From Clostridia bacterium (GTDB taxonomy: Bacteria; Bacillota; Clostridia; Christensenellales; Aristaeellaceae), in assembly GCA_017526525.1 (NCBI GenBank), contig JAFXRG010000044.1:1-54119 (forward strand): DNA of 54,119 bases, written 5' to 3'. Below the pieces are notes generated by a model. It searched no databases. It saw only the letters and a program-made list of their open reading frames with translations, and had not been told where the DNA came from. The position numbers were made by a program, and so were the translations under genes. Position 1 is the first letter of the stretch, and the number at the start of each line of letters is the position of its first letter. Positions 13,701-44,589 of the stretch are shown piece after piece.

Positions 13701-13710
13701 AAATCCGGAG

Positions 13711-14650: not shown

Positions 14651-14680
14651 CAAAAGGCCGCCCGTTCGGGCGGCCTTTTG
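14651..14680 (-). terminator. Strong terminator after the ABC-2 pair
   Basis: A perfect 13-bp stem CAAAAGGCCGCCC/GGGCGGCCTTTTG with loop GTTC lies just after the permease stop. It reads as a terminator on both strands. Confidence 0.9.
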
Positions 14681-14689
14681 CCGTGGTTT

Positions 14690-15475: not shown

Positions 15476-16362
15476 GCCTGCTCGCCTCCCTTCCCGTAAA
15501 AATGAAGGAATATTTCTTCCAGGTCCGGCTCCGCGATCGTCAGGTCGCTGATCTCTTCCCGGGCCAGGGTCCGGATCAGTTCGTTCACGTCCCCGCTGTA
15601 AAGGAAGCTCACCATGCCACCCAGTTCGTTCCATTCCCGGGCTTCCGGCAGCATTTCTTTCCGGAGGCTCCCCCGCAGCGTAACCCGCCTGGCATGGGTC
15701 TGGGACAGGGCTTCCACGCTGTCGCACGCGATAATGCTTCCTTCCCGGATCACTGCAGCCCGGACGCAGTAGCGCTGTATTTCCGACAGTACATGGCTGG
15801 ACAGGAAAACGGTCACGCCCTTCCGGTTCGCCTCCTGCAGGATGCAGAAAAACTCATGCTGCATCAGGGGATCCAGTCCGCCGGTAGGCTCGTCCAGGAT
15901 CAGCAGCTCCGGCTCATGCTGCAGCGCGCATACGATTCCCACCTTCTTCCGGTTGCCGAAGGAAAGGTTTTCCACCTTTTTCGCCGTATCCAGCTGCAGC
16001 CGTTCGCACAGTTCCGCGGCCCGGCCCGTACAGTCCTTGCCCCGCAGGTCCGCCGACAGCTTCAGGATCTCCCGGACGGTCAGTCCCGTATACAGCGCTG
16101 TATCCGAAGGCAGGTATCCGATCCTTTTCAGGATTTCCTTCCGTTCCCTGCCGGTCGGGTCCAGCCCCAGCACCCGAGCTTTGCCGGAGTTCGGATGAAT
16201 CAGCCCCAGCAGGGTCCGGATCGTCGTGGACTTTCCCGCTCCGTTCGGCCCGATAAATCCGAAAAACTCTCCCGGGGCCACGGTCAGATCCAGTTCCCGG
16301 ATGCCCCGGGCTTTCCCGTAAAACTTTGTCAGCTTTTCCGTACAGATTGCCTGTTTTTCCAT
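15472..16362 (-). CDS. ABC-2 exporter ATP-binding protein
   Basis: A 296-residue ATPase of the CcmA/DrrA type. Walker A is GPNGAGKST (about 39-47), Walker B is LLILDEPTGGLDP and the H-loop is SSHVLSE. The signature motif reads LSFGN, the variant seen in this subfamily in place of LSGGQ. The C-terminal 80 residues form the usual extension of this subfamily. AAGGAA precedes the ATG. It forms a two-gene operon with the permease, between a promoter (16399-16427) and a terminator (14651-14680). Confidence 0.92.
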   Translation of the reverse strand: MEKQAICTEKLTKFYGKARGIRELDLTVAPGEFFGFIGPNGAGKSTTIRTLLGLIHPNSGKARVLGLDPTGRERKEILKRIGYLPSDTALYTGLTVREILKLSADLRGKDCTGRAAELCERLQLDTAKKVENLSFGNRKKVGIVCALQHEPELLILDEPTGGLDPLMQHEFFCILQEANRKGVTVFLSSHVLSEIQRYCVRAAVIREGSIIACDSVEALSQTHARRVTLRGSLRKEMLPEAREWNELGGMVSFLYSGDVNELIRTLAREEISDLTIAEPDLEEIFLHFYGKGGEQA

Positions 16363-16398
16363 TCCGGTTTCCTTCCTTCCGGTTCATTTCCGCTTATG

Positions 16399-16427
16399 AT
16401 TCTACCCGGCATCGCATCGTTTGTCAC
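16399..16427 (-). promoter_or_regulatory. Promoter of the ABC-2 operon
   Basis: GTGACA and TAGAAT are separated by 17 bp on the minus strand, 37 nt before the ATPase ATG. Confidence 0.65.
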
Positions 16428-16442
16428 GGACGGAAGCAGCGA

Positions 16443-16491
16443 ATAAAAAAACGCTATTCCTCCGATTCGGAAAAATAACGTCTTTTTTTCG
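16443..16491 (-). terminator. Terminator between the membrane remnant and the ABC-2 operon
   Basis: On the minus strand CGTTATT pairs with AATAGCG (one G:T), with an inner CCG/CGG, followed by seven T residues. Confidence 0.65.
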
Positions 16492-16765
16492 CTCCGGGTT
16501 TTCCTCCGCCAGCGGGATAAACACATCCGGCAGCGTCCGCGGCAAAAAAGCCGGCCAGCGGGATCCTGGCTGAAAGCACGTAGGGTTTCCGGCTTCGCTG
16601 GCTCAGGTAGGTTGCTTCACAGGCATAGATCACAAAATTGTACAGCAGGCAGAACAGCAGCAGATGATACACACATCGGAGTCCGTAAATGATCCACACC
16701 GGCGTGTCCGGATTTGCCGCAATCAGCCTGTGCAGCAGCAGATCCGCGCAGACGGCCGTAATTTG
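16454..16765 (-). pseudogene. Remnant of a membrane sensor domain (as in membrane GGDEF proteins)
   Basis: An open minus-strand frame without a start codon at its front encodes two amphipathic/hydrophobic helices (ITAVCADLLLHRLIAANP, then YHLLLFCLLYNFVIYACEA) and SQRSRKPY. This pattern resembles the N-terminal membrane domains of clostridial GGDEF proteins. A stop codon (TAA) precedes the frame, and its last 25 codons look unprotein-like. I read it as a truncated fragment left between recQ and the ABC operon. A short functional membrane peptide cannot be excluded. Confidence 0.4.
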
Positions 16766-16827
16766 TTACAAATTTTTTCGGTTTTTTCAAAGCCTCCCGG
16801 AGCGCGATGAAAACGCGGAGAATGCCG

Positions 16828-18876
16828 TCAGATGATCCCAAGCTTCTTCAGGCGGCTCCGGATCGCTCCCTGGGTTCTGCGGTGGATTTCCGATAACTGT
16901 TTGGTGGTTTTTCCTTCGTGGCGTTCCCGGATCAGCTGCCGGTCCTCCTCCTTTGTCCAGGGCTGATAGGCTTCGGTGCTTCCTTTTGCGATCACCTTGT
17001 CTTTAAAGGCCTGGAAACTTCCCGGGTGATCGGATTGCTTGCTTTTTCCGGATTTTTTTGCTTTTCCGCTTTTCGTTGCAGGCGCATAGCGCTCAATAAC
17101 CTGCAAAATCCGGTCCCCGTAACGGTTGGCTTTGAACAGGCCCATCCCGTCCACGGCGGCCAGCTGCTTTTTGGTCCGCGGAAGCGTTCTGCAAAGATCC
17201 CGAAGCGTGCTGTCGGAAAACAGCGCGGACGCCGCGACATATTCGCTGGCGGAAATTTCATACCGAAGCTGCTGCAGCGCCGTAAGCAGGCTCTCATTCC
17301 CGGTATTCTGCCGGGCTTTCATTCTCCGCCGCATTACCACCCTGCGCTTGCTGAAAAGAACCTCCGTCGACTGGCGGTTCAGCTTCAGGCATTCCGTTTC
17401 GTCGCGTTCCAGATACCCCTGGCTTATAACGGCTTCCGTAATATCGCGGATGGCCTCCTCCTCAAGATCGTTCATCAGTCCGAAGGTCGTCAGCTCCGCC
17501 GGAACGATCCCCTCCGGCGCGGGATCCGGAAGCTCCCCGTGCATCAGCGGAACAATGACCTCCTCCGGAAACCGCTGGCCGGTTCTCGCCACGCAGGAAA
17601 GGATCATCTGGGCCTCCATGGTAATATCCTGGTGTTCGCAGTCCGGAACGCAGTTGGAGCAGTTTCCGCAGTTGTCCGGGGCCCTTTCCCCGAAATAGCG
17701 GAGGAGTCCCTGCCGCAGGCACTTCCGGGATTTCGCGTAGAACGTCATCCACTTCAGGCGTTCCTCATCCTTTTCCCGCACCTGCGCCTGTTCCTCCGGT
17801 GTCAGGTCCGGATTTGGTTCCGAATGTTCAATCAGCCAGCGGGCGGTTACCACATCCTGCGGCGCATACAAAAGAATGCAGTCCGCGTCGCATCCGTCCC
17901 GTCCGGCCCGGCCTGCCTCCTGGTAGTAAGCTTCGAGGCTTTTGGGCATGTTGTAATGGATTACATAGGATACGTTCGATTTGTCAATTCCCATGCCGAA
18001 CGCGTTGGTTGCAACCATGATCCGTTTCCGGTCAAACAGAAAATCTTCCTGGTTTTTCCGCCGTTCCTCCGCGTCCAGCCCCGCATGGTACCGTGTCGCC
18101 GGAAACCCTTCCCGCTCAAGCTGGGCGCATACCGCCTCCACGTTTTTGCGCGTGGCGCAGTAAATGATTCCGGACTGGCGAAACCGATCCCGCAGCAGCT
18201 CTGAAAGCGACTTGTCCCGGTCCCGGGGCTGATAGACGGAAAAAGAAAGATTGGGCCGGTCAAATCCGGTGGTGATCATCACGGGATCCTTCAGCCGCAG
18301 ATTGTCCAGGATGTCCTTCCGGACGTTCGGCGTAGCTGTCGCCGTAAAGGCCCCGACAGCAGGGCGCCGGGGCAGGGCGGCAACAAACTCCGGTATTTTC
18401 AGGTAATTGGGGCGAAAATCCTGCCCCCATTGGGAAATGCAGTGCGCTTCATCCACCGCAACCAGCGGGATTTCCATATGCCGGCACATCTCCTGAAAGC
18501 CGGGAGCCTGCAGCCTTTCCGGCGCCACATACAGGATTTTAAAAGCTCCGCCGGCCGCCTGGTATGCGGTTTCCCGGTATTCCGCTTCGTTCATGGCGCT
18601 GTTCAGGAAGGCCACGGGAACTCCCCGGAGCTTCAGTGCCGTCACCTGGTCCTTCATCAGGGAAATCAGGGGGGAAATCACCAGGGAGGTTCCGGGCAGT
18701 ATCATCGCCGGAATCTGGTAACACAGGGATTTCCCGGATCCGGTCGGCATCACGCCGAGCACATCGTTTCCGTTCAGCAGTCCTTCCGCCAGTTCCTGCT
18801 GCCCGGCTCGGAAGGAATGATGTCCGTACACCCGGTTCAGGATCTCCCCGGCCTTTTCCATCTGATTCATCTTCAT
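16828..18876 (-). CDS. recQ: ATP-dependent DNA helicase RecQ
   Basis: A 682-residue RecQ-family 3'-5' helicase acting in recombinational repair. Walker A is MPTGSGKS, the DEAH box is VDEAHCISQWG, and motif VI QEAGRAGRDG is present. The Zn-binding cysteines (KCLRQ, then CGNCSNC) and RQC region follow. An HRDC-type domain comes next (from about 510: TALQQLRYEI and a later VDGMGLFKANRYG). The last 55 residues (WTKEEDRQLI to the end) form a Myb/SANT-like helix-turn-helix extension, beyond the usual RecQ length of about 600. The ATG at 18876 is used. The in-frame ATG at 18870 has GGGG at better spacing and is an alternative. Confidence 0.93.
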   Translation of the reverse strand: MKMNQMEKAGEILNRVYGHHSFRAGQQELAEGLLNGNDVLGVMPTGSGKSLCYQIPAMILPGTSLVISPLISLMKDQVTALKLRGVPVAFLNSAMNEAEYRETAYQAAGGAFKILYVAPERLQAPGFQEMCRHMEIPLVAVDEAHCISQWGQDFRPNYLKIPEFVAALPRRPAVGAFTATATPNVRKDILDNLRLKDPVMITTGFDRPNLSFSVYQPRDRDKSLSELLRDRFRQSGIIYCATRKNVEAVCAQLEREGFPATRYHAGLDAEERRKNQEDFLFDRKRIMVATNAFGMGIDKSNVSYVIHYNMPKSLEAYYQEAGRAGRDGCDADCILLYAPQDVVTARWLIEHSEPNPDLTPEEQAQVREKDEERLKWMTFYAKSRKCLRQGLLRYFGERAPDNCGNCSNCVPDCEHQDITMEAQMILSCVARTGQRFPEEVIVPLMHGELPDPAPEGIVPAELTTFGLMNDLEEEAIRDITEAVISQGYLERDETECLKLNRQSTEVLFSKRRVVMRRRMKARQNTGNESLLTALQQLRYEISASEYVAASALFSDSTLRDLCRTLPRTKKQLAAVDGMGLFKANRYGDRILQVIERYAPATKSGKAKKSGKSKQSDHPGSFQAFKDKVIAKGSTEAYQPWTKEEDRQLIRERHEGKTTKQLSEIHRRTQGAIRSRLKKLGII

Positions 18877-18906
18877 ACCCCGAAATCCGTCATTTTTCTT
18901 GTACCT

Positions 18907-18935
18907 ATCATAACATGCAGGTCATTTCCCGGCAA
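18907..18935 (-). promoter_or_regulatory. recQ promoter
   Basis: TTGCCG and TATGAT are separated by 17 bp on the minus strand. The predicted start site is about 24 nt before the recQ ATG. Confidence 0.65.
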
Positions 18936-19029
18936 GGCATACCAAAAACGGATCTCCCGAAGGGGACCCGCAATTTCCGTTTCAGGGCCTGTCCGCAAAT
19001 CCGGCCGGTTTTTCCCGGAAAAACAGCCG

Positions 19030-19443
19030 TCAGGCCTTCGTATGAAATTCATGGCTGCATCTGGGGCAATGGATTTCCTTTTCGCCGGTTCCCCGATTCA
19101 GCCGCAGCAGCGTCCTGCATTGCGGGCATTTGAAATACTTATACTGTTTCATTCCTTTCAGGCGTCTGAAAAACTGTTTTGTTTTCAGGACAGCATTCCG
19201 GAAAAAGAATGTGAATTTCCGGTTTTCTTCCTGCCTTTTGGTTCTGTTTTTGGAAAAAAAGCGGAAAACAAACACACCGCACAGCCCGTAGCTGATATAA
19301 AACAGCCAGTACAGCCCGGTAAACGCCGAAACCATCTGTACCGCCAGGCTGAGGATCAGCAGCGCCATTCCGAGCTGGTCCGGCCCGTTCCGGACCGACA
19401 TGAACCGGGCAAACCTGAACAGCAGATTCCTGAAAAAAGTCAC
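19030..19443 (-). CDS. Small membrane protein with C-terminal zinc ribbon
   Basis: A 137-residue protein with two adjacent membrane segments (about 25-45 and 46-64), a basic linker and a C-terminal zinc ribbon with CPQC (106-109) and CPRC (126-129). The frame extends upstream, but GTG 19443 with AAGGAAAG 7 nt before it begins a sensible membrane protein, so I start there. Membrane proteins ending in a zinc ribbon are common in Clostridia and mostly uncharacterised. It lies between recQ and tRNA-Ala, all on the minus strand. Confidence 0.75.
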   Translation of the reverse strand: MTFFRNLLFRFARFMSVRNGPDQLGMALLILSLAVQMVSAFTGLYWLFYISYGLCGVFVFRFFSKNRTKRQEENRKFTFFFRNAVLKTKQFFRRLKGMKQYKYFKCPQCRTLLRLNRGTGEKEIHCPRCSHEFHTKA

Positions 19444-19594
19444 GGAGCATCTTTCCTTTCTTAAGCACCCTGCTGCCATACATGATACCTTTTCTCCCGG
19501 CAAAACACAAACCATTTCTTTACCGGCCTGTCCGTGTCCGGCTGCAGTTCTACGTTGCAGTTTCTTTTGAATGTCCTGTTTTTGACACTTGCGC

Positions 19595-19632
19595 AAAAAC
19601 AAAACGCGGAAGTCTTATAACTCAAGACTTCC
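19595..19632 (-). terminator. Terminator of tRNA-Ala
   Basis: GGAAGTCTT (19608-19616) pairs with AAGACTTCC (19624-19632). On the minus strand it is followed by GCGTTTTGTTTTT, directly after the tRNA. Confidence 0.85.
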
Positions 19633-19639
19633 ACGATTG

Positions 19640-19712
19640 TGGAGCATAGGAGATTCGAACTCCTGACCCCAACACTGCCAGTGTTGTGCGCTACCAACTG
19701 CGCTAATGCCCC
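19640..19712 (-). tRNA. tRNA-Ala(GGC)
   Basis: A complete cloverleaf. The anticodon stem CAACA/TGTTG encloses loop CTGGCAG, giving anticodon GGC. The acceptor GGGGCAT/ATGCTCC contains the G3:U70 pair that defines alanine identity, and the discriminator is A. CCA is not encoded (the gene continues CAA), unlike the tRNA-Ser genes at the left edge. Confidence 0.95.
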
Positions 19713-19762
19713 GAACAGATGGTATCTTATCACAACTCAGTTCGTTTGTAAAGCTTTTTTTC

Positions 19763-19791
19763 TTTAAAATTGCACCGGCCTGTGATAAAAT
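19763..19791 (+). promoter_or_regulatory. Promoter of the M32 carboxypeptidase gene
   Basis: TTTAAA and TAAAAT are separated by 17 bp, about 25 nt before the ATG. The -35 box is weak. Confidence 0.5.
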
Positions 19792-19816
19792 GCTTGCAAA
19801 GGGAGTGTGATACCGT

Positions 19817-21316
19817 ATGACATTGCAGCAGGCAATTGAAAAAATGGACGAACTGGAAAAGGCGTTTTACGCGATCAATCATGCCTCGTCCATACTTTAT
19901 GTGGACGGGGATACCGTGGCGCCGAAAAATTCCTGGAAGGGCCGGGGCAAAGCCCTGGGGTATCTCAGTGAGCTGACCTACCGCCTTCTCGTCAACCCGG
20001 AAACCGGCGAGGTGCTGAATACCGTGCTTCAGGGAAAAAACGAAACCGACGAGGTCACCTTCCGCCGGGCGGAAATGCTGAAAAAGGAATATGATGAACT
20101 GCACGTGCTGCCCATGGAGGAATATGTTGCCTTTCAGGAACTGACCAACGAAGCCTCCTCGGTCTGGCATGATGCCAAGGAAAAAAGCGACTGGGCGATG
20201 TTCGCTCCCCTACTGGAGAAGATTGTCGCCTCCCGGCGCCGCTTTGCCGCGCTGAAAGCGCCCGGAAAGCCGGCCTATGACGTGCTGCTGGACCTGTTTG
20301 AAGAAGGCGCTTCCATGGAAATGCTGGATCCTTTTTTCCGGACCCTGCGGGAAGAGCTTTCCCCGGTTATCCGGGAAGTGGCTTCCCGGGAAAAACCGGT
20401 TCCCGCCTTTATGAAAGCCTCCTGGCCCGTGGACCGGCAGCGGATTTTCTCCCAAAAGATCATGGAGCTGGAAGGCATTGATCCCCTGAACTGCACCCTG
20501 GGGGAAACCGAGCATCCCTTTACGGACGGCACCAACAAATGGGACGTGCGGATCACCACCCACTATCATGAGGAGGATCCCTTCTCCAGCCTGTACAGCG
20601 TGATTCATGAGGGCGGCCACGCCTTGTACGAACTGGATGTGCGGGATGACCTGCAGTTTACCTGCCTGTCCGACGGTGTAACCATGGGCATTCATGAAAG
20701 CCAGTCCCGTTTCTATGAAAACATCATCGGCCGCAGCCGTGCCTTCTGCACGCCTCTCCTGAAAATCCTTCGGGAAGTATTCCCGGATCAGGTTCGGGGC
20801 GTCACGGAGGAAGAGCTGTACTCCGCCATCAACCTGTCAAAGCCGTCCCTCATCCGCACCGAAGCGGACGAACTCACCTATTCCCTTCATGTCATGATCC
20901 GCTATGAGCTGGAAAAAGCGCTGATCGCGGGAGACCTTGCCGTAAAGGATATTCCCGGGGAATGGAACCGGCTTTACCGGGAAATCCTGTCGGTTGAAGT
21001 CCCGGATGACCGCCGGGGCTGCCTGCAGGACAGCCATTGGTCCGGCGGCGCCATCGGCTATTTCCCCTCCTACGCGCTGGGCAGCGCCTACGGCGTACAG
21101 ATGCTGCACGAAATGGAAAAGACCGTGGATGTCTGGTCCGCGGTAGCCCGGGGAGATCTCTCTCCCGTCACCACCTGGCTGACGGAGAAAATCCATCAGT
21201 ATGGTTCCCTCCGGAAGCCCCAGGATCTGCTTCCCGCCGCCATGGGCGGTCCGCTGGACGCAAAAGTCTATACGGCCTACCTGAAAAAGAAATTCGGTGA
21301 GCTTTACAGTCTCTGA
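19817..21316 (+). CDS. M32-family metallocarboxypeptidase
   Basis: A 499-residue cytosolic zinc carboxypeptidase (Taq/Pfu type), which removes C-terminal amino acids from peptides with broad specificity. The zinc motif is HEGGH (264-268) with the third ligand in the HESQS block (293-297). IRTEADELTY and the late SGGAIGYFPSYALGSAYG are family hallmarks. Length is typical. A GGGAG ribosome site precedes the ATG. It is a single-gene unit that converges on the DUF4867 operon. Confidence 0.93.
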   Translation: MTLQQAIEKMDELEKAFYAINHASSILYVDGDTVAPKNSWKGRGKALGYLSELTYRLLVNPETGEVLNTVLQGKNETDEVTFRRAEMLKKEYDELHVLPMEEYVAFQELTNEASSVWHDAKEKSDWAMFAPLLEKIVASRRRFAALKAPGKPAYDVLLDLFEEGASMEMLDPFFRTLREELSPVIREVASREKPVPAFMKASWPVDRQRIFSQKIMELEGIDPLNCTLGETEHPFTDGTNKWDVRITTHYHEEDPFSSLYSVIHEGGHALYELDVRDDLQFTCLSDGVTMGIHESQSRFYENIIGRSRAFCTPLLKILREVFPDQVRGVTEEELYSAINLSKPSLIRTEADELTYSLHVMIRYELEKALIAGDLAVKDIPGEWNRLYREILSVEVPDDRRGCLQDSHWSGGAIGYFPSYALGSAYGVQMLHEMEKTVDVWSAVARGDLSPVTTWLTEKIHQYGSLRKPQDLLPAAMGGPLDAKVYTAYLKKKFGELYSL

Positions 21317-35251: not shown

Positions 35252-35497
35252 ATGTTTCTGAAATCATTCCTGTCCGTTTTCACCGGCGCCTTCGGCATGA
35301 TCTTTCGGGTCATGCTGATCATCGCCCTCTGCTTCGGGGGCGGTTTCTGCCTGTTTTCCATGCTGGCCGTTCCCTTTATCTGGGACGGCCTGATCCGCCT
35401 CGGCGGCCTGCTGCTCTGCGCCGCCCTGGTGTACGGTCTTCTCCGCCTCGGAAGGGATAAGGACGACGATCCCGGTCCTGATGAGTTCAGGAGTTGA
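35252..35497 (+). CDS. Small two-helix membrane protein
   Basis: An 81-residue hydrophobic protein with two membrane segments (about 12-38 and 44-65) and an acidic tail (GRDKDDDPGPDE). GGAGG lies 7 nt before the ATG, 13 nt after the GH39 stop, so it is probably cotranscribed. Its last 11 nt overlap the 3' end of queH on the other strand. Family and function are unknown. Confidence 0.65.
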   Translation: MFLKSFLSVFTGAFGMIFRVMLIIALCFGGGFCLFSMLAVPFIWDGLIRLGGLLLCAALVYGLLRLGRDKDDDPGPDEFRS

Positions 35498-36095
35498 CGG
35501 AATACAGGCACCCGCAGTAATTCTGCCGGTACAGCCCGTATTCCCCGGACAGCTGCAATGACCGCAGATACCCGTTCTTCTTTTTGAAATCCGCAAACAG
35601 ATATTTCACCCCGAACCGCCGGGCAGCCTCCTCGCCCGCGCGGTTCACTTTTTCCGCGTTCTTGTGGGGGCTCACGGACAGGGTGGTGGTGAAATACTCA
35701 AACCCGCTTTCCCGTGCTTTTTCCGCGGTATAATTCAGCCGCATCGCGAAACACGCTTCGCAGCGCTTCCCGCCTTCCGGTTCCTCCGCCAGCGACGGCG
35801 CAAAAGCCTCAAAAGCCTCGTGGTTGTATCCGCATTCCATCCATCCGGTGCCGTCCCCCAGCAGCTCCAGCAGCCGCTTCTGTTCCGCCTTCCGGTGAAG
35901 GTATTCCTCCTCCGGTTCAATGTTCGGATTGTAGTAAAGCACCGTCACCTGAAAATACTCCCGCAGCCTTTCCAGCACCGCGCTGGAGCAGGGGCCGCAG
36001 CAGCTGTGCAGCAGCAGCGTCGGCCGCCGTCCCTCCAGGGAGGCAATCTCCGCTTCCATCTCCCGCTGATAGTTCCGCTTTATTTCCTGGGGCAT
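35487..36095 (-). CDS. queH: Epoxyqueuosine reductase QueH
   Basis: A 202-residue QueH (formerly DUF208) that reduces epoxyqueuosine to queuosine in tRNA, the non-orthologous replacement of QueG. Cysteine motifs are LHSCCGPCSS, RCEACFAMRL and YRQNYCGC, giving the metal/Fe-S ligands of the family. Two starts are possible. The ATG at 36095 has GGAGG 8 nt upstream. The in-frame ATG at 36119 has a copy of the same GGAGGTGAAGGGA 13-mer, but with poorer spacing. I use 36095. With tgt at 22057 this supports queuosine metabolism in the organism. Confidence 0.92.
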   Translation of the reverse strand: MPQEIKRNYQREMEAEIASLEGRRPTLLLHSCCGPCSSAVLERLREYFQVTVLYYNPNIEPEEEYLHRKAEQKRLLELLGDGTGWMECGYNHEAFEAFAPSLAEEPEGGKRCEACFAMRLNYTAEKARESGFEYFTTTLSVSPHKNAEKVNRAGEEAARRFGVKYLFADFKKKNGYLRSLQLSGEYGLYRQNYCGCLYSVNS

Positions 36096-36153
36096 TCCCT
36101 TCACCTCCCCGTCTTCCATAATACTCCCTTCACCTCCATCCGTCCACTGAAAA

Positions 36154-36181
36154 ACCGGGAAACGGTTTCCCGCTTCCCGGT
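36154..36181 (-). terminator. Terminator of the cohesin-like/DUF4214 gene
   Basis: ACCGGGAA (36154-36161) pairs with TTCCCGGT (36174-36181). On the minus strand it is followed by TTTTCAG, 23 nt beyond the gene's stop. Confidence 0.7.
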
Positions 36182-36203
36182 GAGTACAGGTTCTCTGTTG
36201 TTC

Positions 36204-37343
36204 TTACAGACCGAAGCCAGCCACGATTCCGGCAAATTCCTGGGAATACGCGAAACCGTCGTTCAGTGCTTCCATGGTCAGCTTTTCATTAATGATCCGG
36301 TCCTTCCAGTAGGCTTTTCCGCCTTCATCCGCCGGACGGCCCAGATACAGCCGGTACAGGGAATCCAGCAGCGCATCCGGATTCTCCACGATCTTCCTCT
36401 GCGCATCCATTTCCGGAGAGAACACGAAGCCCCATGCCACCTGGATCGGGGTCTGTTCCTTGTTCCGCAGCTTGTCGCACCAGTAGTTCAGGCCGCCTTC
36501 GTCGCTGGCGCGGCTCAGCGCTTCGCTGTAGCAGCGGGCTACGAATCCTTCGATACCGGTCAGCTGCTGTCCGCCGCCTACGCTGCCCGCCACGATGCCG
36601 TACTCATCGCAGATGCCCAGGAATTCCTGGCTGCCGCAGAAACCGTTGATCACCGCGTTGCTGTCTCCACCGGCGTTCAGCGTATCCACCCACATGGCTT
36701 TTCCGCCCGGATCGGAGGGACGGCCCAGCATGGTGTTGTACAGGATTTCAACCGTTACGTCGCTGGGGCTCTTCCGGTTCAGGTATTCAGGGCTGAACAT
36801 GAAGTTGCTGATAATCTGGGAGGCGTTCGCCTGGCCGCTCTCCAGCAGGCTCACCCAGTTGTTCAGGCCGCCTTCATCTGCGCTTCTTCCCAGGATCAGG
36901 GAATAGCAACGGCGCACAAAGGAGGAAACCAGGCCTTCAACGATCAGGTTCTGATCCGCCACAGTCAGGGTCGTTTCCTTTTCGTCCCGGTTAAAGGTGC
37001 CGGAAGCGGTGAAGTCCACCAGGGAAGAACCCTTCTCCGCATTGTCCTTGACCTTGAACAGCAGGGAGCCGATGTTTCCGTTCAGCGCGTTGGAGATATC
37101 AGCGATGGCGATCTGGCCGTCTTTGTATCCCTTCTGGATCGTGCCGTTGATTGTCGTATCCTTGTATTCAAACCGCTTGGCGTCGTAGGTATACTTCAGG
37201 ATGGAGAACGCGGCATCCTTGGACTCCACATTGATCGGCACAACAACGTTCTTTCCGGGGTTCGCGGAAATATCTTCCGCCACCGCGCCGCCGACCATGC
37301 ACAGTACCAGGGCCAGCGCCAGAATCATGGAGATTTTTCTCAT
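36204..37343 (-). CDS. Secreted protein with cohesin-like domain and DUF4214 repeats
   Basis: A 379-residue exported protein. Residues 1-22 are a signal peptide (ending GGAVAED). Residues 25-135 look like a cohesin-type beta sandwich (NPGKNVVVPINV, ILKYTYDAKRFEYKD, then GSLLFKVKDNAEKGSS). Two DUF4214 units follow (about 138-250 and 262-375), each with two copies of the motif LGRxxDxGGxxxW. DUF4214 occurs in bacterial surface and matrix proteins, with an unclear role. GGAGGT lies 8 nt upstream of the ATG. It starts 52 nt after the dockerin-bearing surface protein gene, so a cohesin-dockerin contact between the two products is a reasonable guess. Confidence 0.82.
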   Translation of the reverse strand: MRKISMILALALVLCMVGGAVAEDISANPGKNVVVPINVESKDAAFSILKYTYDAKRFEYKDTTINGTIQKGYKDGQIAIADISNALNGNIGSLLFKVKDNAEKGSSLVDFTASGTFNRDEKETTLTVADQNLIVEGLVSSFVRRCYSLILGRSADEGGLNNWVSLLESGQANASQIISNFMFSPEYLNRKSPSDVTVEILYNTMLGRPSDPGGKAMWVDTLNAGGDSNAVINGFCGSQEFLGICDEYGIVAGSVGGGQQLTGIEGFVARCYSEALSRASDEGGLNYWCDKLRNKEQTPIQVAWGFVFSPEMDAQRKIVENPDALLDSLYRLYLGRPADEGGKAYWKDRIINEKLTMEALNDGFAYSQEFAGIVAGFGL

Positions 37344-37395
37344 TTCATGTACCTCCGTTCTTTATTTATATCCGTTTCACAACCATTTCCGGTAA

Positions 37396-40300
37396 TCAGC
37401 CATTTCCGGATACAGCACCGGGCAGCAGTTCCACGTTTTCGCCGCCCAGGTACCGGATCAGGCGCAGGAGATCCTTCTCATCGACGGTTCCGCTGCCGTC
37501 CACATCCGCGTTGTCTTCATTGATCTCAATCAGCTTTCCTGTTTCCGGATCTTTCTCATCCGCCAGATACTTCATCAAGCGCAAAACATCCCGGCCGTCA
37601 ACAACACCGTCATCATTCACGTCTCCCGGTAAACACTCTTTGATAACAGTGATTTGTGAAGATGCACTTACACCACTGTCGGCAGTCGCCTTTATTGTAA
37701 CAATACCAGCTGATTTACCTGTAACTGTACCAAACATGTCAACTGTGGCGATACTATCATCACTGCTGGAATAGATAACCAACTGGTTCTCACAGGTCTG
37801 AGTTCCTGTAGTAACGTAAGCATTGAGCTTCAGGGTTTTCCCTGATTTCAGCGTTGTTTTGTCCGGAGCAAGCTTAATTGCGGTCACATCTTTTCCGTCG
37901 ACAATACCGTCCTCATTTACATCCCCCGGTATAGGATCGCTGGTAACACTGATTTGCGAAGATGCGCTCACACCACTGTCCGCGGTTGCTTTTATTGTCA
38001 CATCACCGGCAGCTTTTGCTGTGACTGTACCATTTGTATCAACCGTAGCAATGCTTTCATCACTGCTGGAATAAGCAACCATCTGGTTCTCATAAGTTTG
38101 AGTTCCCATGGTAACCTTGGCATTGATCTTCAGGCTCTTCCCAGGCTTCATAGATGCCTTGTTCGGGGAAAGCTCAATTGCTGTCACATCTTTACCGTCG
38201 ACAACACCATCCTTGTTAACATCGTCTGGTGAATAATCAATGCTGACGGTGATTTGTGAAGATGCGCTCACACCGCTGTCCGCAGTTGCTTTTATGATCA
38301 CATCGCCGGCAGCCTTTGCTGTAACTGTACCATTTGTATCAACCGTAGCAATGCTTTCATCACTGCTGGAATAAGCAACCATCTGGTTCTCATAAGTTTG
38401 AGTACCCATGGTAACCTTGGCATTGATCTTCAGGCTCTTCCCGGGCTTCATAGTTGTCTTCGCTGGGGACAGTTCAATCGCCGTAACGTCCTTTCCATCA
38501 ACTATGCCATCCTCGTTCACGTCACCCGGTAATATGCTAATAACAGTAATTTGAGAAGATGCACTTACGCCGCTGGCAGCGGTCGCTTTTATCGTCACGT
38601 TGCCCGCTTCTTTTGCTGTGACAAGACCTTTTTTGTCAACCGTAGCGACGTTTTCATCATTACTGGAATAGGTGACAAGCTGATTCTCGCAGGTCTGGGT
38701 TTTCATGGTTACATGTGCATTAATCTGCAGACTTTCCCCGGCTTTCATGGTTGTGTTATTTGGAGAAAGTTCAATTGCTGTTACAGGATAACAAATTACC
38801 AACTTTGTCGTTTCTGATTTTCCACTTATCTCATCTGTCACTGTAATGGAAGTCTCACCCACGCCATAACCACCGATGATCATTCCGCTTTCGTTTACTG
38901 TCGCAAGTTCTTTGTCTTCAATTTTAAAGCTGAAATTCACTACTGCGTTTTGGGGAAGATAATTCACCTCAAATGATTCTTGCGATTTTGCAGCGACAAG
39001 TATTTCCTCTGGCAGTAATATTTTATCAATCTGAGGACCAACGTGAACAACAGTACTTGCAGATATCCCATCCACAGTGACAGTGACAACCGCGTCCCCT
39101 TCTTTACCTGCTGTAAAAAATCCCGCATCGTCAACTGTTAGTATTTCAGGCTGTGAGGATTTCCAGCTTATCATTGGAGATGAAGTTTCCGGGAAAATAT
39201 ATGGATAAATCTGCTGTTTATTACCGACCAACATATCTAACTTTTCAGGAAGCTCTACTTGAACGCCGACAGAAGCATTCGGATCATCCAACAGAACCAC
39301 GTTACAAAAACATCTCCGTGCCCACTGTTCAGCATATGATAACTCATAGCAATAGACAGTTGGCGGATAAATATACACACCAAACATATTTGGCTTGCCT
39401 ATACTTGTTACAGATTGAGGTAGATATATTTTCAAATTCGTATTGGATCGATCAAAAATAGTTGTATTACTTATCTCAGTTACACCATCTGCTATCGTGA
39501 TGCTTTTCAAATTGGAACAATTCTTAAAAGGATAGTCTCCAATATTTTTTATTCCGCTTGGTATCCTAATACTTGACAGATTATCGCAGTTTTTAAAAGC
39601 GTTCTTTCCAATACTTGTCAAACTGTCCGGGATCAATATAGCGTTTAAACTGCTACAGTTTTGAAAAGCATAATCCCCAATATAAGTCACTCCATCCGGT
39701 ATTGTGACGCATGTCAAGCTTGAGCAGTCTCCAAAGGCATATTGTCCAATTCCTTCCACACTGCCCGGTATCAGAATACTCGTAAGGTTTTTGCATTTAG
39801 CGAAAGCATATTCTCCAATACTTGTCATGTTATCCGATAGCGTGATGTTCCTCAGACTACTACATTTATAGAACACATTTCCTGCAATACTTGTTACACT
39901 GTCCGGGATCGTGATGCTCGTCAGACTGCTGCAACCAGAAAAAGCATAGGTTCCAATACTCGTCACACTGTCCGGGATAGTGATGCTTGTCAGACTGCTG
40001 CAGCCAGAAAAAGCATATTTTCTAATGTATGTGACGCTTTCCGGGATCGTAATGCTCGTCAAGCTGCTGCAGGCATTAAAAGTAGATTCCCTTATTACGG
40101 TCACGCCATCCGGGATAGTGATGCTTGTCAGACTGCTGCAGCCATCAAAAGCATGTTCTCCTATTTCGGTCACGCCATCCGGGATAGTGATGCTTGTCAG
40201 ACTGCTGCAGCGAAAAAAAGCTTGATTTCCAATGTATGTCACGCTTTCCGGGATCGTGATGCTTGTCAGACTGCTGCAGCCCCTAAAGGCATATTTCCCA

Positions 40301-40533
40301 ATACTTGTCACACCATCTTCAATGATAACAGTCTTTATTGCCTCACTTTCTCCTCCACCTTCGAAGTCATCTGACATCCTCCCCGTGCCGCTAATTCTTA
40401 ACACTCCGTCATCACTCAACGTCCATGTAACATTATCCCCGCATTTCCCGCTGGTTTCCGCCACAGCAGACACACAGAAACATACTGCCGCGATCATCAA
40501 CAGTACCAAAAGAAATCTCCGTATTTTTTTCAT
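37396..40533 (-). CDS. Large surface protein: BspA-like LRRs, Big2 domains, C-terminal dockerin
   Basis: A 1045-residue exported protein. I start at ATG 40533 (AGGAGG upstream), which begins the signal peptide (1-25); the frame extends 26 codons further upstream. About 12 BspA-type leucine-rich repeats of 23 residues (around 70-370) carry the pattern AF-x-x-CSSLTSITIPDSVTSI. Six Big2-like immunoglobulin domains follow (about 430-965). Single calcium loops of dockerin type (DVNEDGIVDGKD and variants) sit before Big2 domains 4, 5 and 6. A complete two-loop dockerin (DVNDDGVVDGRD and DVDGSGTVDEKD) ends the protein. No sorting motif or membrane anchor is seen, so attachment would depend on a cohesin partner. 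Its DNA, especially around 39150-39650, is more AT-rich than its neighbours. Confidence 0.88.
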   Translation of the reverse strand: MKKIRRFLLVLLMIAAVCFCVSAVAETSGKCGDNVTWTLSDDGVLRISGTGRMSDDFEGGGESEAIKTVIIEDGVTSIGKYAFRGCSSLTSITIPESVTYIGNQAFFRCSSLTSITIPDGVTEIGEHAFDGCSSLTSITIPDGVTVIRESTFNACSSLTSITIPESVTYIRKYAFSGCSSLTSITIPDSVTSIGTYAFSGCSSLTSITIPDSVTSIAGNVFYKCSSLRNITLSDNMTSIGEYAFAKCKNLTSILIPGSVEGIGQYAFGDCSSLTCVTIPDGVTYIGDYAFQNCSSLNAILIPDSLTSIGKNAFKNCDNLSSIRIPSGIKNIGDYPFKNCSNLKSITIADGVTEISNTTIFDRSNTNLKIYLPQSVTSIGKPNMFGVYIYPPTVYCYELSYAEQWARRCFCNVVLLDDPNASVGVQVELPEKLDMLVGNKQQIYPYIFPETSSPMISWKSSQPEILTVDDAGFFTAGKEGDAVVTVTVDGISASTVVHVGPQIDKILLPEEILVAAKSQESFEVNYLPQNAVVNFSFKIEDKELATVNESGMIIGGYGVGETSITVTDEISGKSETTKLVICYPVTAIELSPNNTTMKAGESLQINAHVTMKTQTCENQLVTYSSNDENVATVDKKGLVTAKEAGNVTIKATAASGVSASSQITVISILPGDVNEDGIVDGKDVTAIELSPAKTTMKPGKSLKINAKVTMGTQTYENQMVAYSSSDESIATVDTNGTVTAKAAGDVIIKATADSGVSASSQITVSIDYSPDDVNKDGVVDGKDVTAIELSPNKASMKPGKSLKINAKVTMGTQTYENQMVAYSSSDESIATVDTNGTVTAKAAGDVTIKATADSGVSASSQISVTSDPIPGDVNEDGIVDGKDVTAIKLAPDKTTLKSGKTLKLNAYVTTGTQTCENQLVIYSSSDDSIATVDMFGTVTGKSAGIVTIKATADSGVSASSQITVIKECLPGDVNDDGVVDGRDVLRLMKYLADEKDPETGKLIEINEDNADVDGSGTVDEKDLLRLIRYLGGENVELLPGAVSGNG
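37620..38760 (-). repeat. Approximately 300-bp tandem coding repeats (Big2 plus calcium loop)
   Basis: Four copies with a period of about 296-303 bp encode a Big2 domain plus a single dockerin-type calcium loop. The middle copies are almost identical at the DNA level over more than 100 bp (near 38020-38145 and 38325-38450), which indicates recent duplication or gene conversion. Confidence 0.8.
39690..40330 (-). repeat. 69-bp tandem repeats encoding 23-residue LRR units
   Basis: About nine consecutive 69-bp units share blocks such as GTCAGACTGCTGCA and CCGGGATAGTGATGCT. Identity is highest between 39890 and 40300. Confidence 0.8.
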
Positions 40534-40568
40534 TGCAATCTTTCCTCCTGTCTTTTTTCTTTTATTGC

Positions 40569-41201
40569 TTACAGTTTCAGCTTGTCCCGGATCTTTTTCT
40601 GTCTGACCCATCGCACCTCCCTGTCAAGTTTGCGGAATAAGTCATGTCCTTTTCGTGCCTGATCCTCCAGTTTTTCATGGAGACTGTCCATTTTTTTGTT
40701 CAGCAGGCTGTGGACAATTTCATTCCGGTATGCGCACCAGTCCCCGATCTCTGAAAGAATCATAAGGATTTCTGCTGCGCGTTCCGGATCATGCAGAGCG
40801 TTCCACAAAATGGATTGTGTTTTTGTTTTCGGCAGTGGCTGCTCCGCTTCTGAAGCAAAACGGAAAACAGCCTCGACAATCTGCCGTTTCTCCTTGATTC
40901 CTGAAATGCTCATCCTGGCATCCGGGCTGATATATTGATGAAGCAATTCCCGGAAACAGCCTACCCGCTCCGATCCGGGACTTGCAACCTTGTATTCATC
41001 TTCTTTTTGCAAAACACCAAGATAGTAAAGCATATACCGGAGCCGGTCCTCCAGACATGCATAATCAATCATGACGGCCTCAAAATAAAAACCGTACTGT
41101 ATTGCTTTTTGGTATTGTTTGATTTGTTCCTGATACGTCGTCTGCTTTTCTTTTCTGCTTTCAACCGGATGAATCTGAGGAACTCTTTTTCTGGCCGCCA
41201 T
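40569..41201 (-). CDS. HEPN-like helical protein
   Basis: A 210-residue, mostly helical, soluble protein. The segment EAVMIDYACLEDRLRYMLYY resembles a HEPN first helix. The later YRNEIVHSLLNK contains an R-x4-H motif (RNEIVH), the catalytic signature of HEPN RNases. The C-terminus is strongly basic. Many HEPN proteins are toxins or RNA-cleaving defence effectors, but non-toxic members exist, so activity is unproven. ATG 41201 has GGAGG 7 nt upstream. The gene lies 88 nt after a small HTH gene and 35 nt before the dockerin protein gene, all on the same strand. Confidence 0.55.
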   Translation of the reverse strand: MAARKRVPQIHPVESRKEKQTTYQEQIKQYQKAIQYGFYFEAVMIDYACLEDRLRYMLYYLGVLQKEDEYKVASPGSERVGCFRELLHQYISPDARMSISGIKEKRQIVEAVFRFASEAEQPLPKTKTQSILWNALHDPERAAEILMILSEIGDWCAYRNEIVHSLLNKKMDSLHEKLEDQARKGHDLFRKLDREVRWVRQKKIRDKLKL

Positions 41202-41289
41202 CACTATTCCTCCCTCTGTCTTTCTGCCTCAGGAAGCACGGCTTCAATCACTGCTCCCAGATCGGAATCCACATTCTCGGAATGACTTT

Positions 41290-41496
41290 TCAGGTTACTT
41301 TCACAGGAAAAAAAATTGTTTCCGGATCCTTCAGATTCAGCGCCTGAATAACCGCTTCCGCATCCTGAAGCCCGAATTGACCGCTGGATACCTTCCTGTC
41401 AAATTCATCTTCTGACATCCCGATTCTTCCTGCAAGTTCCCGGACTGTTATACCTTCCTTGGACAGTTCTTCATTCAGGCGGTTTCGGTCCAGCAT
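41290..41496 (-). CDS. Small Cro-like helix-turn-helix protein
   Basis: A 68-residue protein with an HTH layout: ITVRELAGRIGMSEDEFDRK, then a recognition-helix-like region and AVIQALNLKDPETIFF, an ending seen in small phage-type repressors. The frame is open 35 codons upstream, but the strong promoter at 41537-41565 lies inside that extension, so ATG 41496 is the start. The 88 nt after its stop encode, in another frame, a protein-like tail (DLGAVIEAVLPEAERQ), possibly a frameshifted end of a longer ancestor. It is divergent from the XRE gene. Confidence 0.7.
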   Translation of the reverse strand: MLDRNRLNEELSKEGITVRELAGRIGMSEDEFDRKVSSGQFGLQDAEAVIQALNLKDPETIFFPVKVT

Positions 41497-41536
41497 AGTT
41501 GTCTTCCATCTCCTGTTTTTACATACATATACATAA

Positions 41537-41565
41537 AGTATAGATTGGCAAAAGTAACCTGTCAA
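41537..41565 (-). promoter_or_regulatory. Strong promoter of the HTH/HEPN/surface-protein series
   Basis: TTGACA and TATACT are separated by 17 bp on the minus strand, close to consensus. The predicted start is near 41530, 34 nt before the HTH ATG. It is the only clear promoter I see for the four leftward genes down to 36204. Confidence 0.85.
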
Positions 41566-41741
41566 GTTATTTTCAGTGATTGTATTGAATCTGTCGGACA
41601 TTTTTTCATTTCCTGATTTTTCATTTATTAAAGGGGATTGCTCTTGTTATTCAGATCGTCCTTTGGAGCTTGCCGGCACTGCTTTTCATTTTTTCAATGA
41701 TGTGATATCATGAGACAAAATATAACGCAGGAGGAACGGAT

Positions 41742-42137
41742 ATGAGTAATGCCGGCGAGCGAATCAGGCAGTGCCGTCTTTCCTGCCGTATGACGCAGGA
41801 TGAAGTCGCCGGTTACCTTGGCGTTGCCAAGCAGACGGTTTTCAAATATGAAAATGGAATCATTACCAATATCCCTTTGGAAGCCATTGAAAGGATGGCC
41901 TTGCTTTTCCGTGTTCCGCCAGCTTATCTGGCCGGATGGAAGGATATCCTTCCACAGCCCCTTCTGCTGCACGAAGATGAAGTTCAACTGATTGAGCGAT
42001 ACCGGAATCTGCCGCCGGAAGGCCAGGAAATGATGCAGCGTCAGGCTGACGCCTATCAGATCATGTACAATCGTCCGGAGAATCCTGCTCCGGAAGCAGA
42101 TGAGCCGGATCAAAACACCTCCGGATCCGGGAACTGA
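41742..42137 (+). CDS. XRE-family transcriptional regulator
   Basis: A 131-residue regulator. An N-terminal HTH_3 domain (about 4-62: GERIRQCRLSCRMTQDEVAG, then VAKQTVFKYENG) is followed by a helical segment (LLLHEDEVQLIERYRNLPPE) and a disordered acidic tail. AGGAGG lies 8 nt upstream of the ATG. It is divergent from the HTH/HEPN series, and the 245-bp gap holds the series promoter and a small palindrome (TGATATCA) near its own likely -10. Control of both directions by this protein is inferred from the arrangement. Confidence 0.9.
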   Translation: MSNAGERIRQCRLSCRMTQDEVAGYLGVAKQTVFKYENGIITNIPLEAIERMALLFRVPPAYLAGWKDILPQPLLLHEDEVQLIERYRNLPPEGQEMMQRQADAYQIMYNRPENPAPEADEPDQNTSGSGN

Positions 42138-42206
42138 ATCTGACGGTTTTTTGCTGTTTTCCGAATCCTGTAAGCATGAAACAAGCTTTTGTTCTATGTT
42201 AAAAAA

Positions 42207-42231
42207 GTGGCATCTGACTGTTTCAGATGCC
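42207..42231 (-). terminator. Terminator of the polysaccharide locus
   Basis: GGCATCTGA (42209-42217) pairs with TCAGATGCC (42223-42231). On the minus strand it is followed by ACTTTTTTAAC, so it ends the leftward genes. The XRE gene stops 70 nt away on the other strand. Confidence 0.7.
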
Positions 42232-42243
42232 GCAGAAAAAAAA

Positions 42244-42396
42244 TTATCCCTCCGGAATCTTCCGCTTTTCCCTCCGGAGCAAAATCTTTTCATTGATCAC
42301 CATAATCACGCCAACAATCAGGAACAGGTAATAGGTGAAGAACCGCCAAACCAGCAGGGCCAGTCCGATGGTACCATCTTTGAAAACTCCATCTCC
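42244..42396 (-). pseudogene. 3' remnant of a second UPF0104-type membrane protein gene
   Basis: About 50 codons without a start read VFKDGTIGLALLVWRFFTYY, then a final hydrophobic helix and a basic tail. The same segment appears at the C-terminus of the intact neighbouring gene (FRDGTIGLGLLIWRFFTYYL), with a different tail. This is therefore the end of a diverged paralogue rather than a recent duplication. A stop precedes the remnant in frame. Confidence 0.8.
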
Positions 42397-42445
42397 CGAT
42401 CAAAATTCCGTTTCACCCCAAACCTCCGGTTCCCGGTCCTGACCT

Positions 42446-43483
42446 CTAACCTGTGACCTCCGGCCTTTGCCCGTTTCGTCGTTTCAGCGTCGTCAGCACC
42501 GCAATCGCTCCCGTGATGAGCCACAGGTAATACGTAAAGAACCGCCAGATCAGCAGTCCGAGTCCAATCGTTCCGTCCCTGAACAGGCCCTGAAAATACA
42601 GCAGGAATCCGCCTTCCTGGGCACCGCTGGCACCCGGCAGGGGCGTATAGCTGGCGCTGACAAACAAGAGACATGCCAGCGTCAGGATTTGAATCCCGGG
42701 CGTCCCGCTCTGTCCCAGGGCATAATAGGTAAACACAGCGCTTCCGGTCAGTCCCAGCAGGCTGCATACGCTGCACAGCAACTGCAGTACGATTTCCTTC
42801 GGATGACGGGCAATTTCATTCAGTGCTTCGTGGTAGGTATCCAGCATTCCGGTCACCTGTTCAGTGGCCTTCTCCGAATCACGCACCAGCCGCATCTTCG
42901 TCCCGAGGCGGATCAGCTTCTCCGCCAGCCGCTGGATCCATTTCCGGCGGAAGGCTGCCAGCAGCACCAGCGGAACGGACATAAAATTGATCACCCATCC
43001 GATCCGGGCCGCCCAGATGGCCCCGCCCAGCTGTTCCGCCACAAAATCATGGTGGATCAGGAACAGTGCCAGCGTCAGCATACATACGGTAAACTGATTC
43101 ATCACAAACCGGACCGTCAGAGCCAGCGTCCCGTATTCAACAGGGATCCCTTCCTTTCGAAGGGAATTGATCTGCATTGGCTGCCAGCCGGCTGAACTGG
43201 GCGTAATGCTGCTGTAGTACATACCGATCAGCACCGTCCGGAATGTCCGGAAGAAGGAAATCCTGTATCCCCGGTTCTTCAGGCAGATCTGGTTCCCCAG
43301 CGTTTCGAACCCGGCAAAGCCTGCCCAGCAAAGCAGTAATCCCCCGACCCAGGGAATCTCCAGCCGGGAAATGGCCTCCCAGGCGTTCCCCATCTCAGGA
43401 TTGCTGAAGGCGATGATCACCACGGCGGAGATGGAAAGAAGAACGAAAAGTACGCTCAGGATCTTCTTCAGCTTTGGCTTCAT
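42446..43483 (-). CDS. UPF0104/AglD-type membrane protein (LPG-synthase-TM family)
   Basis: A 345-residue integral membrane protein with about eight helices. It belongs to the family containing the MprF flippase domain and AglD (lysylphosphatidylglycerol synthase TM region). Signatures are MYYSSITPSSAGWQPMQ and YTPLPGASGAQEGGF. In glycan loci such proteins are thought to flip or position lipid-linked intermediates. I use ATG 43483, with GGGGAG 6 nt upstream, in preference to the TTG two codons earlier. It lies 2 nt after the glycosyltransferase stop. Confidence 0.88.
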   Translation of the reverse strand: MKPKLKKILSVLFVLLSISAVVIIAFSNPEMGNAWEAISRLEIPWVGGLLLCWAGFAGFETLGNQICLKNRGYRISFFRTFRTVLIGMYYSSITPSSAGWQPMQINSLRKEGIPVEYGTLALTVRFVMNQFTVCMLTLALFLIHHDFVAEQLGGAIWAARIGWVINFMSVPLVLLAAFRRKWIQRLAEKLIRLGTKMRLVRDSEKATEQVTGMLDTYHEALNEIARHPKEIVLQLLCSVCSLLGLTGSAVFTYYALGQSGTPGIQILTLACLLFVSASYTPLPGASGAQEGGFLLYFQGLFRDGTIGLGLLIWRFFTYYLWLITGAIAVLTTLKRRNGQRPEVTG

Positions 43484-43485
43484 AG

Positions 43486-44589
43486 TCAACTCCCCGAGCG
43501 GTCAAATTTGATCATTTTCCGCCCGAACCGGAAAAAGAAAACCAGCAGCCGCTCCCCGATCCGTCCGGGCAGGCAGCACACCCTTCCCAGCGGATTCCAC
43601 CGCAGCTTTCTGTACAGGGCGGGATCAAATTCCCTCACAGTTTCCCACATCTCCCGGTTCATCCGATGGCTTCGCTCTGAATCTTCAATGAACTGCAGCG
43701 CGCAGACGTTGAACAGCTGGCCGCAGCAGTTATTGATCAGGTATTTGTACAGGTGTTTCGGCAGCTGTTGCAGCTCCTCCAGCCGGTAGGTAGTCATCTG
43801 TGTTTTGGAAACCTCTGTCAGCTGGTCCAGCCGTTTCAGGATATTCTGCTCGTTCACGGACTGGTCGCCCCGCCCGAGATAATAGGCATACAGAGGCGCG
43901 TGATAATAAATCACCCGCCGGGTATGCGCCATCGGCTGGTAAACATACAGATTATCCTCGTAATAGGTGTGTTCCGGCAGGGTGTACCCGATATCCCGCA
44001 GCAGCTGCGTCCGGTAAATCAGGCTGTGGATCACAAACTGGTTCCAGAGATGAAACCGCCGGCTTTCGTCCCAGGTCTTCAGAACGCCCGGCTTCATCGT
44101 CCCGAAATAGGAAATCCGGAAGGCGTTTTCCTGTTCCGGCTGGTCGTATACATAGTCGTGATAAACCAGGTCCGCCTGGTTCCCCGGTTCCGCATGCTGC
44201 CGCAGCAGGTCCATCAGTCCGGGAATACTCTCCTTAATCAGCCGGTCATCCGAATCCAACACCTTAAAATATATGCCTTCCCCGTGGGCAATCCCGTAGT
44301 TCAGGCCGGAACCGTGTCCGCCGTTTGCCTGGTGGTGTACCCGGATAATGGAAGGATATTCGGCCGCCAGCCGGTCGGCAATGGCGCCCGTCTCATCTGT
44401 GGACCCGTCGTTTACGATCAGGATCTCCATTTCCTCCCCGCCGGGCAGCAGGGAATCCACCGCCTTTTCCATGTAGGCGGCGGAATTGTAACAGGGAACC
44501 ACACAGGTCAGCAGTTTACGTACAGGCATAGTCAGGAGACAGCTCTCTTTCTCATCTTCATTTAAGCGTTTCCGCTTTTTCCGGGGCAT
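43486..44589 (-). CDS. Family 2 glycosyltransferase
   Basis: A 367-residue GT-A-fold enzyme that transfers a sugar from a nucleotide donor to a glycan or lipid carrier. Visible motifs are VVPCYNSAAY, ILIVNDGSTDETG, GHGSGLNYGI and the metal-binding KVLDSDD. A second acidic motif, TYYEDNLYVYQP, sits where the ED catalytic pair is expected. The protein ends with a basic hydrophobic helix that may touch the membrane. ATG 44589 has AGGTGA 6 nt upstream. The start lies inside the 3' end of the glf remnant (32-nt overlap in another frame), showing that the two were once an operon. Confidence 0.9.
   Translation of the reverse strand: MPRKKRKRLNEDEKESCLLTMPVRKLLTCVVPCYNSAAYMEKAVDSLLPGGEEMEILIVNDGSTDETGAIADRLAAEYPSIIRVHHQANGGHGSGLNYGIAHGEGIYFKVLDSDDRLIKESIPGLMDLLRQHAEPGNQADLVYHDYVYDQPEQENAFRISYFGTMKPGVLKTWDESRRFHLWNQFVIHSLIYRTQLLRDIGYTLPEHTYYEDNLYVYQPMAHTRRVIYYHAPLYAYYLGRGDQSVNEQNILKRLDQLTEVSKTQMTTYRLEELQQLPKHLYKYLINNCCGQLFNVCALQFIEDSERSHRMNREMWETVREFDPALYRKLRWNPLGRVCCLPGRIGERLLVFFFRFGRKMIKFDRSGS

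Follow-up and report, generated by a model that had tools for sequence, protein, structure and literature searches.

The window, that is, the whole stretch of DNA analysed (54,119 nucleotides of Clostridia bacterium contig JAFXRG010000044.1), belongs to a draft genome of 66 contigs. Four leftward genes encode, in order, a Cro-like HTH protein, a HEPN-like protein, an LRR/Big2/dockerin protein and a cohesin/DUF4214 protein, separated by gaps of 88, 35 and 52 nt, and the divergent gene of an XRE protein precedes them. The features of the region are the following:

35487-36119, minus strand: queH, flanking gene (PF02677, 1.2e-65)
36150-37365, minus strand: cassette of ribosome-binding site (RBS), cohesin-DUF4214 gene and terminator
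36154-36181, minus strand: intrinsic terminator after the cohesin-DUF4214 gene, 12 pairs
36204-37343, minus strand: cohesin-DUF4214 protein, secreted-type, proposed anchor for dockerin proteins, 379 aa
36757-36878, no strand: 122-nt stretch identical between both cassette copies
37396-40533, minus strand: LRR_5/Big_2/dockerin protein, secreted-type, 1045 aa
40569-41201, minus strand: HEPN-like protein, 210 aa
41279-41301, no strand: second, degenerate operator-like site at the 3' end of the HTH gene
41290-41496, minus strand: Cro-like HTH protein, 68 aa
41537-41565, minus strand: promoter of the leftward series, TTGACA-17-TATACT, score 11/12
41551-41573, no strand: palindromic operator candidate over the -35 box
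41683-41711, plus strand: weak candidate XRE promoter, 9/12, TG before the -10 box
41742-42137, plus strand: XRE protein, 131 aa
42209-42231, minus strand: terminator after the LPG-synthase relic
42244-42386, minus strand: relic of a second LPG-synthase gene, last ~47 codons
42387-42416, minus strand: 30-nt relic of the queH gene start
42446-43489, minus strand: LPG synthase, flanking gene (PF03706, 2e-34)

The order and spacing of the leftward genes, as well as the single near-consensus promoter and the single terminator that the initial annotation had assigned to them, were confirmed. Of the 12 promoter-like sites that 35900-42600 contains, the leftward promoter scores highest (shuffles average 7.9), and the scan of the same stretch placed no promoter-like or terminator-like site in the three gaps. 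Judged by this spacing, the four genes would form a single transcript. Independent starts or early stops are possible, because weak same-strand sites lie inside the HEPN and LRR genes, both promoter-like (39708, 39047 and 38260, 9/12 each) and terminator-like (41054, 40886 and 40506).

A Pfam scan covered eight window proteins, namely the five of the island and three flanking ones. All domains initially named for the surface proteins were matched: LRR_5 (7.9e-114), Big_2 (1.9e-74) and Dockerin_1 (2.5e-22) in the larger protein, DUF4214 (1.3e-38) and Cohesin (3.2e-6; 27.8 bits, cut-off 24.1) in the smaller, with the cohesin and dockerin domains both above the Pfam cut-off. The divergent XRE protein also kept its assignment, since only HTH families were matched (HTH_3, 4.1e-12), and no protease domain is among its matches. 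As had been noted, phage-type regulators, a possible RNase and a dockerin and cohesin surface pair share a leftward series, with one strong promoter in front.

Insertion between LPG synthase and queH

LPG synthase and queH are neighbours in G012, G023, G020 and G011, the four relatives closest by LPG synthase, and ~6 kb separates them in this genome. The queH gene is absent from the LPG-synthase locus of G014 and G003, and wherever another same-genus genome has both genes, their listed positions lie apart; adjacency thus characterises the nearest relatives. GC content is 0.44 in the LRR gene, 0.46 in the HEPN-like gene, 0.47 in the HTH gene and 0.53 in the XRE gene, and 0.57-0.59 in the cohesin-DUF4214 gene, LPG synthase and queH. 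By gene order and composition, the series is an insert, largely of low GC, between the two flanking genes.

Read from the LPG synthase side, the junction consists of 29 nt, the queH-start relic (27/30 identical to G012 and to G023), the LPG-synthase tail (77% amino acid identity over 44 aa to G011), the terminator and the XRE gene, and the intact queH starts across the island from its relic. These relics would fit an import together with flanking DNA of a related locus, by partly illegitimate recombination. The patch was apparently imported, and its pieces look assembled from different sources.

Such an odd joint of queH start and LPG-synthase tail could also arise if the contig joined two loci or two strains, and both the 66 contigs of the draft and the 122 nt identical in the two copies of the cohesin gene would suit that explanation. 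On the other hand, the window and contig C7, at whose end part of the second copy lies, each run through the 122 nt with flanking variants of their own, the presence of LPG synthase and queH on one contig agrees with gene order in the four closest relatives, and the identity at the relic junction, by reading, amounts to just a few bases. An assembly artefact is thus very improbable, and an imported insert is the reading followed below.

The regulator pair and a candidate operator

Relatives of the XRE protein were found in 9 of 61 genomes including this one (E<=1e-5), and the loci of the best three (G002, G007 and G012) of the eight other matching genomes were examined. In G002 the XRE gene stands opposite a 68-aa HTH gene, with ImmA-like and large serine recombinase genes near, and in G007, where it is opposite a 76-aa HTH gene, its neighbour is a tyrosine integrase, and phage-like genes follow further out (names by reading). 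A divergent repressor/Cro-type arrangement with prophage homologues is therefore present in two of the three relatives. In G012, where the XRE homologue shares 57% identity across 112 residues, no HTH partner was recognised beside it among frames of at least 60 aa, which, like the commonness of XRE proteins, counts against a switch. The Cro-like name given to the small HTH protein is upheld by 31 and 34% identity to the HTH proteins of the G002 and G007 prophage regions; its Pfam matches fall short, all being below the cut-offs (DUF6471, 0.00015; HTH_26, 0.0041).

Among phage records, 79 match the XRE protein at E<=1e-4 and several are annotated as repressor, all at less than 60% identity and none covering more than 80% of the query, while the viral contigs searched with it gave no match. 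The XRE and HTH proteins resemble, at the level of sequence, a prophage CI/Cro pair. The region has in common with a prophage CI/Cro immunity region the divergence of an XRE and a small HTH gene, a strong cro-side promoter and a palindrome over the -35 box, and homologues lie near integrase genes. Unlike in such a region, HEPN-like and surface genes come after the Cro-like gene, and no integrase or phage structural gene is among the eight proteins scanned with Pfam.

The palindrome at 41551-41573 is a likely operator, and so far a candidate one, because it covers the -35 box and its 18-base core recurs beside the XRE homologue of G012, where the upstream DNA carries two palindrome copies, one with the identical core and one variant. 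In the window region one palindrome occurs, a number that shuffles also reach, and the operator claim is therefore based on its position and the block common to G012; the intergenic regions of G002, G007 and G103 hold no 8-7-8 palindrome. Exact matches to the core pattern in the 61 genomes are the window site and the two G012 sites only. The pattern was derived from these very sites and their recovery is partly circular, so that what counts as evidence is the block that the two genomes share beside proteins 57% identical. One mismatch adds three rows, namely the other strand of the window site and places in G014 and G011, beside which no XRE gene was recognised. The latter two, the only one-mismatch forward matches outside the window and G012 sites, were taken as chance, since the reversed-pattern control gave three such matches.

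With up to three mismatches, the window holds two matches including the source site (expected 0.30; 3 of 100 shuffles reached two). The other one is the degenerate site at 41279-41301, which has three mismatches and takes part in inverted repeat I1. Promoter inversion through the inverted repeat 41281-41301/41551-41571 was considered and rejected, as shared operator half-sites account for the repeat equally well.

In G012 (locus L113, C12:65000-78834, positions 10735-13668), the XRE homologue and its two operator-like copies have a serine recombinase gene next to them and then NusG-like and Wzz-like genes (by reading), possibly a switch before a polysaccharide locus.

The HEPN-like protein and its family

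The HEPN-like protein carries the motif R159-N-E-I-V-H164, an R-x4-6-H motif with a polar residue after R as in the HEPN superfamily. In the sections of PMC3710099 drawn on here, HEPN domains are described with this motif towards the end of helix 3, an acidic Ex3[KR] in helix 2 and a variable insert between them. The predicted model (pLDDT 84, pTM 0.81) would place E51 in a helix at 39-61 and R159 and H164 in a helix at 139-167, with a further helix at 174-201, which gives the superfamily order of an acidic residue in helix 2, an insert, the motif towards the end of helix 3, and helix 4. PADLOC gave weak matches to HEPN-bearing models (0.0034 and 0.0052), no Pfam HEPN family was matched, and fold searches with the model yielded nothing significant, with no HEPN protein among the matches listed. 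Of the initial assignment, the R-x4-H motif stands, joined by the helix order and the weak PADLOC matches, and neither Pfam nor the fold searches add to it. HEPN membership is consequently likely rather than proven, because the fold searches gave no significant match.

The family is sparse. Apart from the protein itself, there were no matches among the 61 relatives, three among 396 genomes of the order, three among 391 genomes of the class and one, with two stops, among 398 genomes of the phylum, plus two goat-gut contigs, one of which (L057) matches G690. With G690 and L057 counted once (5,348 bases each, same reading frames), six distinct places lie outside this genome: G103, G257, G463, G690/L057, L058 and G1114. 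The other two matches were set aside as due to chance: G108 (E 0.0044), which has one stop and lies antisense to an RbfA-like gene, and G579 (E 0.0084), which falls within a longer frame resembling a ligase, both by reading. Phages, plasmids and viral contigs contained no relative when searched with the HEPN-like protein, the G690 homologue and a two-row alignment. In a five-row family alignment, W, R and H are aligned in all rows, which share W-x3-R-[ND]-x3-H; the residue after R is N in four and D in L055, E-x3-[KR] occurs in 3/5 rows, and E-D-R is common to all five.

The neighbours of the family genes vary. One homologue lies near an integrase-like gene, and in L057 an HTH-type gene is found ~2.5 kb from the homologue (both by reading). 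In L058 (5788-10618), the family gene comes after two PPM-like phosphatase genes, a protease-FHA-like gene and a vWA-FHA-like gene (by reading).

The protein probably acts as an RNase, of an anti-phage or abortive type. Tha, a prophage-borne HEPN defence of Staphylococcus aureus phages, has a comparable HEPN-type motif (R-N-S-I-M-H, against R-N-E-I-V-H here) and a prophage-type control region, the two being likened by motif and setting; as the cited part of the source has it, Tha is expressed from the cI promoter, whereas the HEPN-like gene lies on the cro side (PMC11087260).

A toxin-antitoxin-like unit would make the HEPN-like protein the toxin, the HTH or XRE protein the antitoxin and repressor, and the surface genes bystanders. 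HEPN domains are indeed described as widespread toxins (PMC3710099, in part), and in G103 (L050) an XRE gene also faces a HEPN-family gene. Nevertheless, the G103 frame is without the N-terminal part, no XRE relative was detected around L111, L112, L057 and L058 (tblastn, E<=1e-3), and none of the eight scanned window proteins matches a nucleotidyltransferase-antitoxin family, so this organization is unlikely.

The surface pair and the make-up of the island

A search of this genome with the cohesin-DUF4214 protein gave 19 matches, the protein itself among them. The whole cassette, from RBS to terminator, has a second copy with 96% nucleotide identity, split between one end of contig C7 and one of C30, with 125 nt of overlap between the two contigs; the terminator therefore arrived with the cohesin-DUF4214 gene. 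Both copies look constrained, because dN is 0.007 and dS 0.18 over 379 codons, and the 122 nt identical between them are a possible assembly path switch. Two dockerin genes and a DUF4214 paralogue 44% identical, the latter with no cohesin match at E<=1e-3, adjoin the second copy, and on C30 an LRR-dockerin gene also comes after a DUF4214 gene. At locus L042 (G000:C7:46100-66058, positions 7964-19957), reading recognised a series made up of an FHA/FtsK-like gene (EssC-like), a kinase-like gene that includes repeat and DUF4214-like parts, a DUF4214 paralogue and the second cohesin-DUF4214 copy, and this may be the home locus of the family.

Genome-wide, 18 dockerin matches (E<=1e-5) and two cohesin matches (E<=0.001) were found, and the latter are two genes, each for a DUF4214 protein; since the genome is 64% complete, cohesins may be missing. 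Two of the 36 other same-genus genomes have one dockerin each and none has a cohesin, and in the order sample dockerins and cohesins each occur in 5/24. The 17 other dockerin proteins carry LRRs (five), transglutaminase-like (four), choline-binding (four), cyclophilin-like (one) and thioredoxin (one) domains, some of them shared, and six have no further domain at E<=1e-5 (one read only in its last 279 residues). Neither these 17 (E<=1e-5; one partly read) nor the dockerin protein of the window contain a glycoside hydrolase. Dockerins on carbohydrate-active enzymes and multi-cohesin scaffoldins, which define cellulosomes, were not found in this genome at 64% completeness.

The closest parallel in the literature consulted is that of the group 4 dockerins of Ruminococcus flavefaciens, which, according to the portion of PMC2930009 used here, are likewise carried by LRR and transglutaminase-like proteins and for which a possible role in cell-surface structuring is suggested by its authors; in this genome, by contrast, no glycoside hydrolase occurs among the 17 other dockerin proteins and the only two cohesin matches are both DUF4214 proteins. 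A literature search found no paper combining DUF4214, cohesin and dockerin. The LRR-dockerin and cohesin-DUF4214 proteins are proposed to pair with each other and would belong to a genome-wide, non-cellulosomal dockerin/cohesin system. That 18 dockerin matches go without a recognised glycoside hydrolase and that both cohesins are borne by DUF4214 proteins suggests that DUF4214 can serve as the anchor of such a system. Moreover, LRR_5 and DUF4214 are joined in one polypeptide in 5/5 proteins of other species, picked because their loci had LRR matches, and these fusions in relatives suggest that cohesin-dockerin pairing replaced a covalent link.

None of the six HEPN-family loci (81,669 bases) contains an LRR or DUF4214 relative (E<=1e-3), and one, in G103, contains an XRE relative. 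Likewise, 0/18 surface loci (145,942 bases) have a HEPN, HTH or XRE relative, these 18 being a chosen subset and several of the compared loci spanning only 2-5 kb. Among the loci compared, both halves coexist in the window alone, although read-through could still couple them. Co-occurrence in related genomes was the check that the initial annotation had set for its idea of a conserved joint system, and the outcome that it had named as refuting, HEPN and surface genes apart, appeared in the sampled loci, where the idea was thus not borne out. On these sequence comparisons, the grouping is a composite island rather than a conserved system, and the surface genes have another history than the regulator/HEPN part.

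The explanation judged reasonably probable is a composite island between LPG synthase and queH, in which the upstream part would be the control region of a lost prophage, with a CI-type XRE facing a Cro-type HTH, the HEPN-like gene would be cargo in the cro direction, and the downstream part would be the LRR-dockerin protein with its cohesin-DUF4214 anchor. XRE would bind the palindrome over the -35 box and keep the leftward promoter off, and its loss or titration would allow the HTH and HEPN-like proteins to be made. Transcription of the HEPN-like gene probably starts at the phage-type promoter and probably extends by read-through into the surface pair, as the gaps are free of terminator-like and promoter-like sites.

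The same promoter and gaps would also serve one working module, in which a domesticated phage switch turns on RNase and surface apparatus together, for example by altering a surface to which phages bind at the same time as infected cells are slowed by the RNase. The G012 XRE homologue, with its operator core beside a serine recombinase and then NusG-like and Wzz-like genes (by reading), is in keeping with this, as is the control of adhesin development by XRE proteins common to Caulobacter and a phage in the part of PMC10688885 cited here. Three observations stand against such a module and render it quite unlikely, namely the lack of co-occurrence in relatives (0/6 and 0/18), the cohesin gene being a cassette with its own terminator, and the varied neighbours of the HEPN genes. 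One function shared by the HEPN-like and surface genes is accordingly possible but unsupported. As to the two roles initially offered, a defence unit with captured surface genes, also unproven, fits the composite island better than a switchable surface module does.

If the read-through is true, a phage lysogeny promoter would set the expression of a surface anchor, a route for phage remnants to rewire surface structures. In its fullest form, which is decidedly doubtful, a prophage CI/Cro switch would have been taken over so that one transcript controls a HEPN RNase and one of the two detected cohesin anchors, phage-related signals would alter RNA decay and cell-surface make-up, and the surface pair would be a non-covalent version of the LRR-DUF4214 fusions of the five relatives.

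Additionally, the complete C-terminal dockerin of the LRR protein is preceded (window positions 37860-38540) by single half repeats of dockerin type (GDVNxDGxVDGxDV), which alternate with Big_2 domains.
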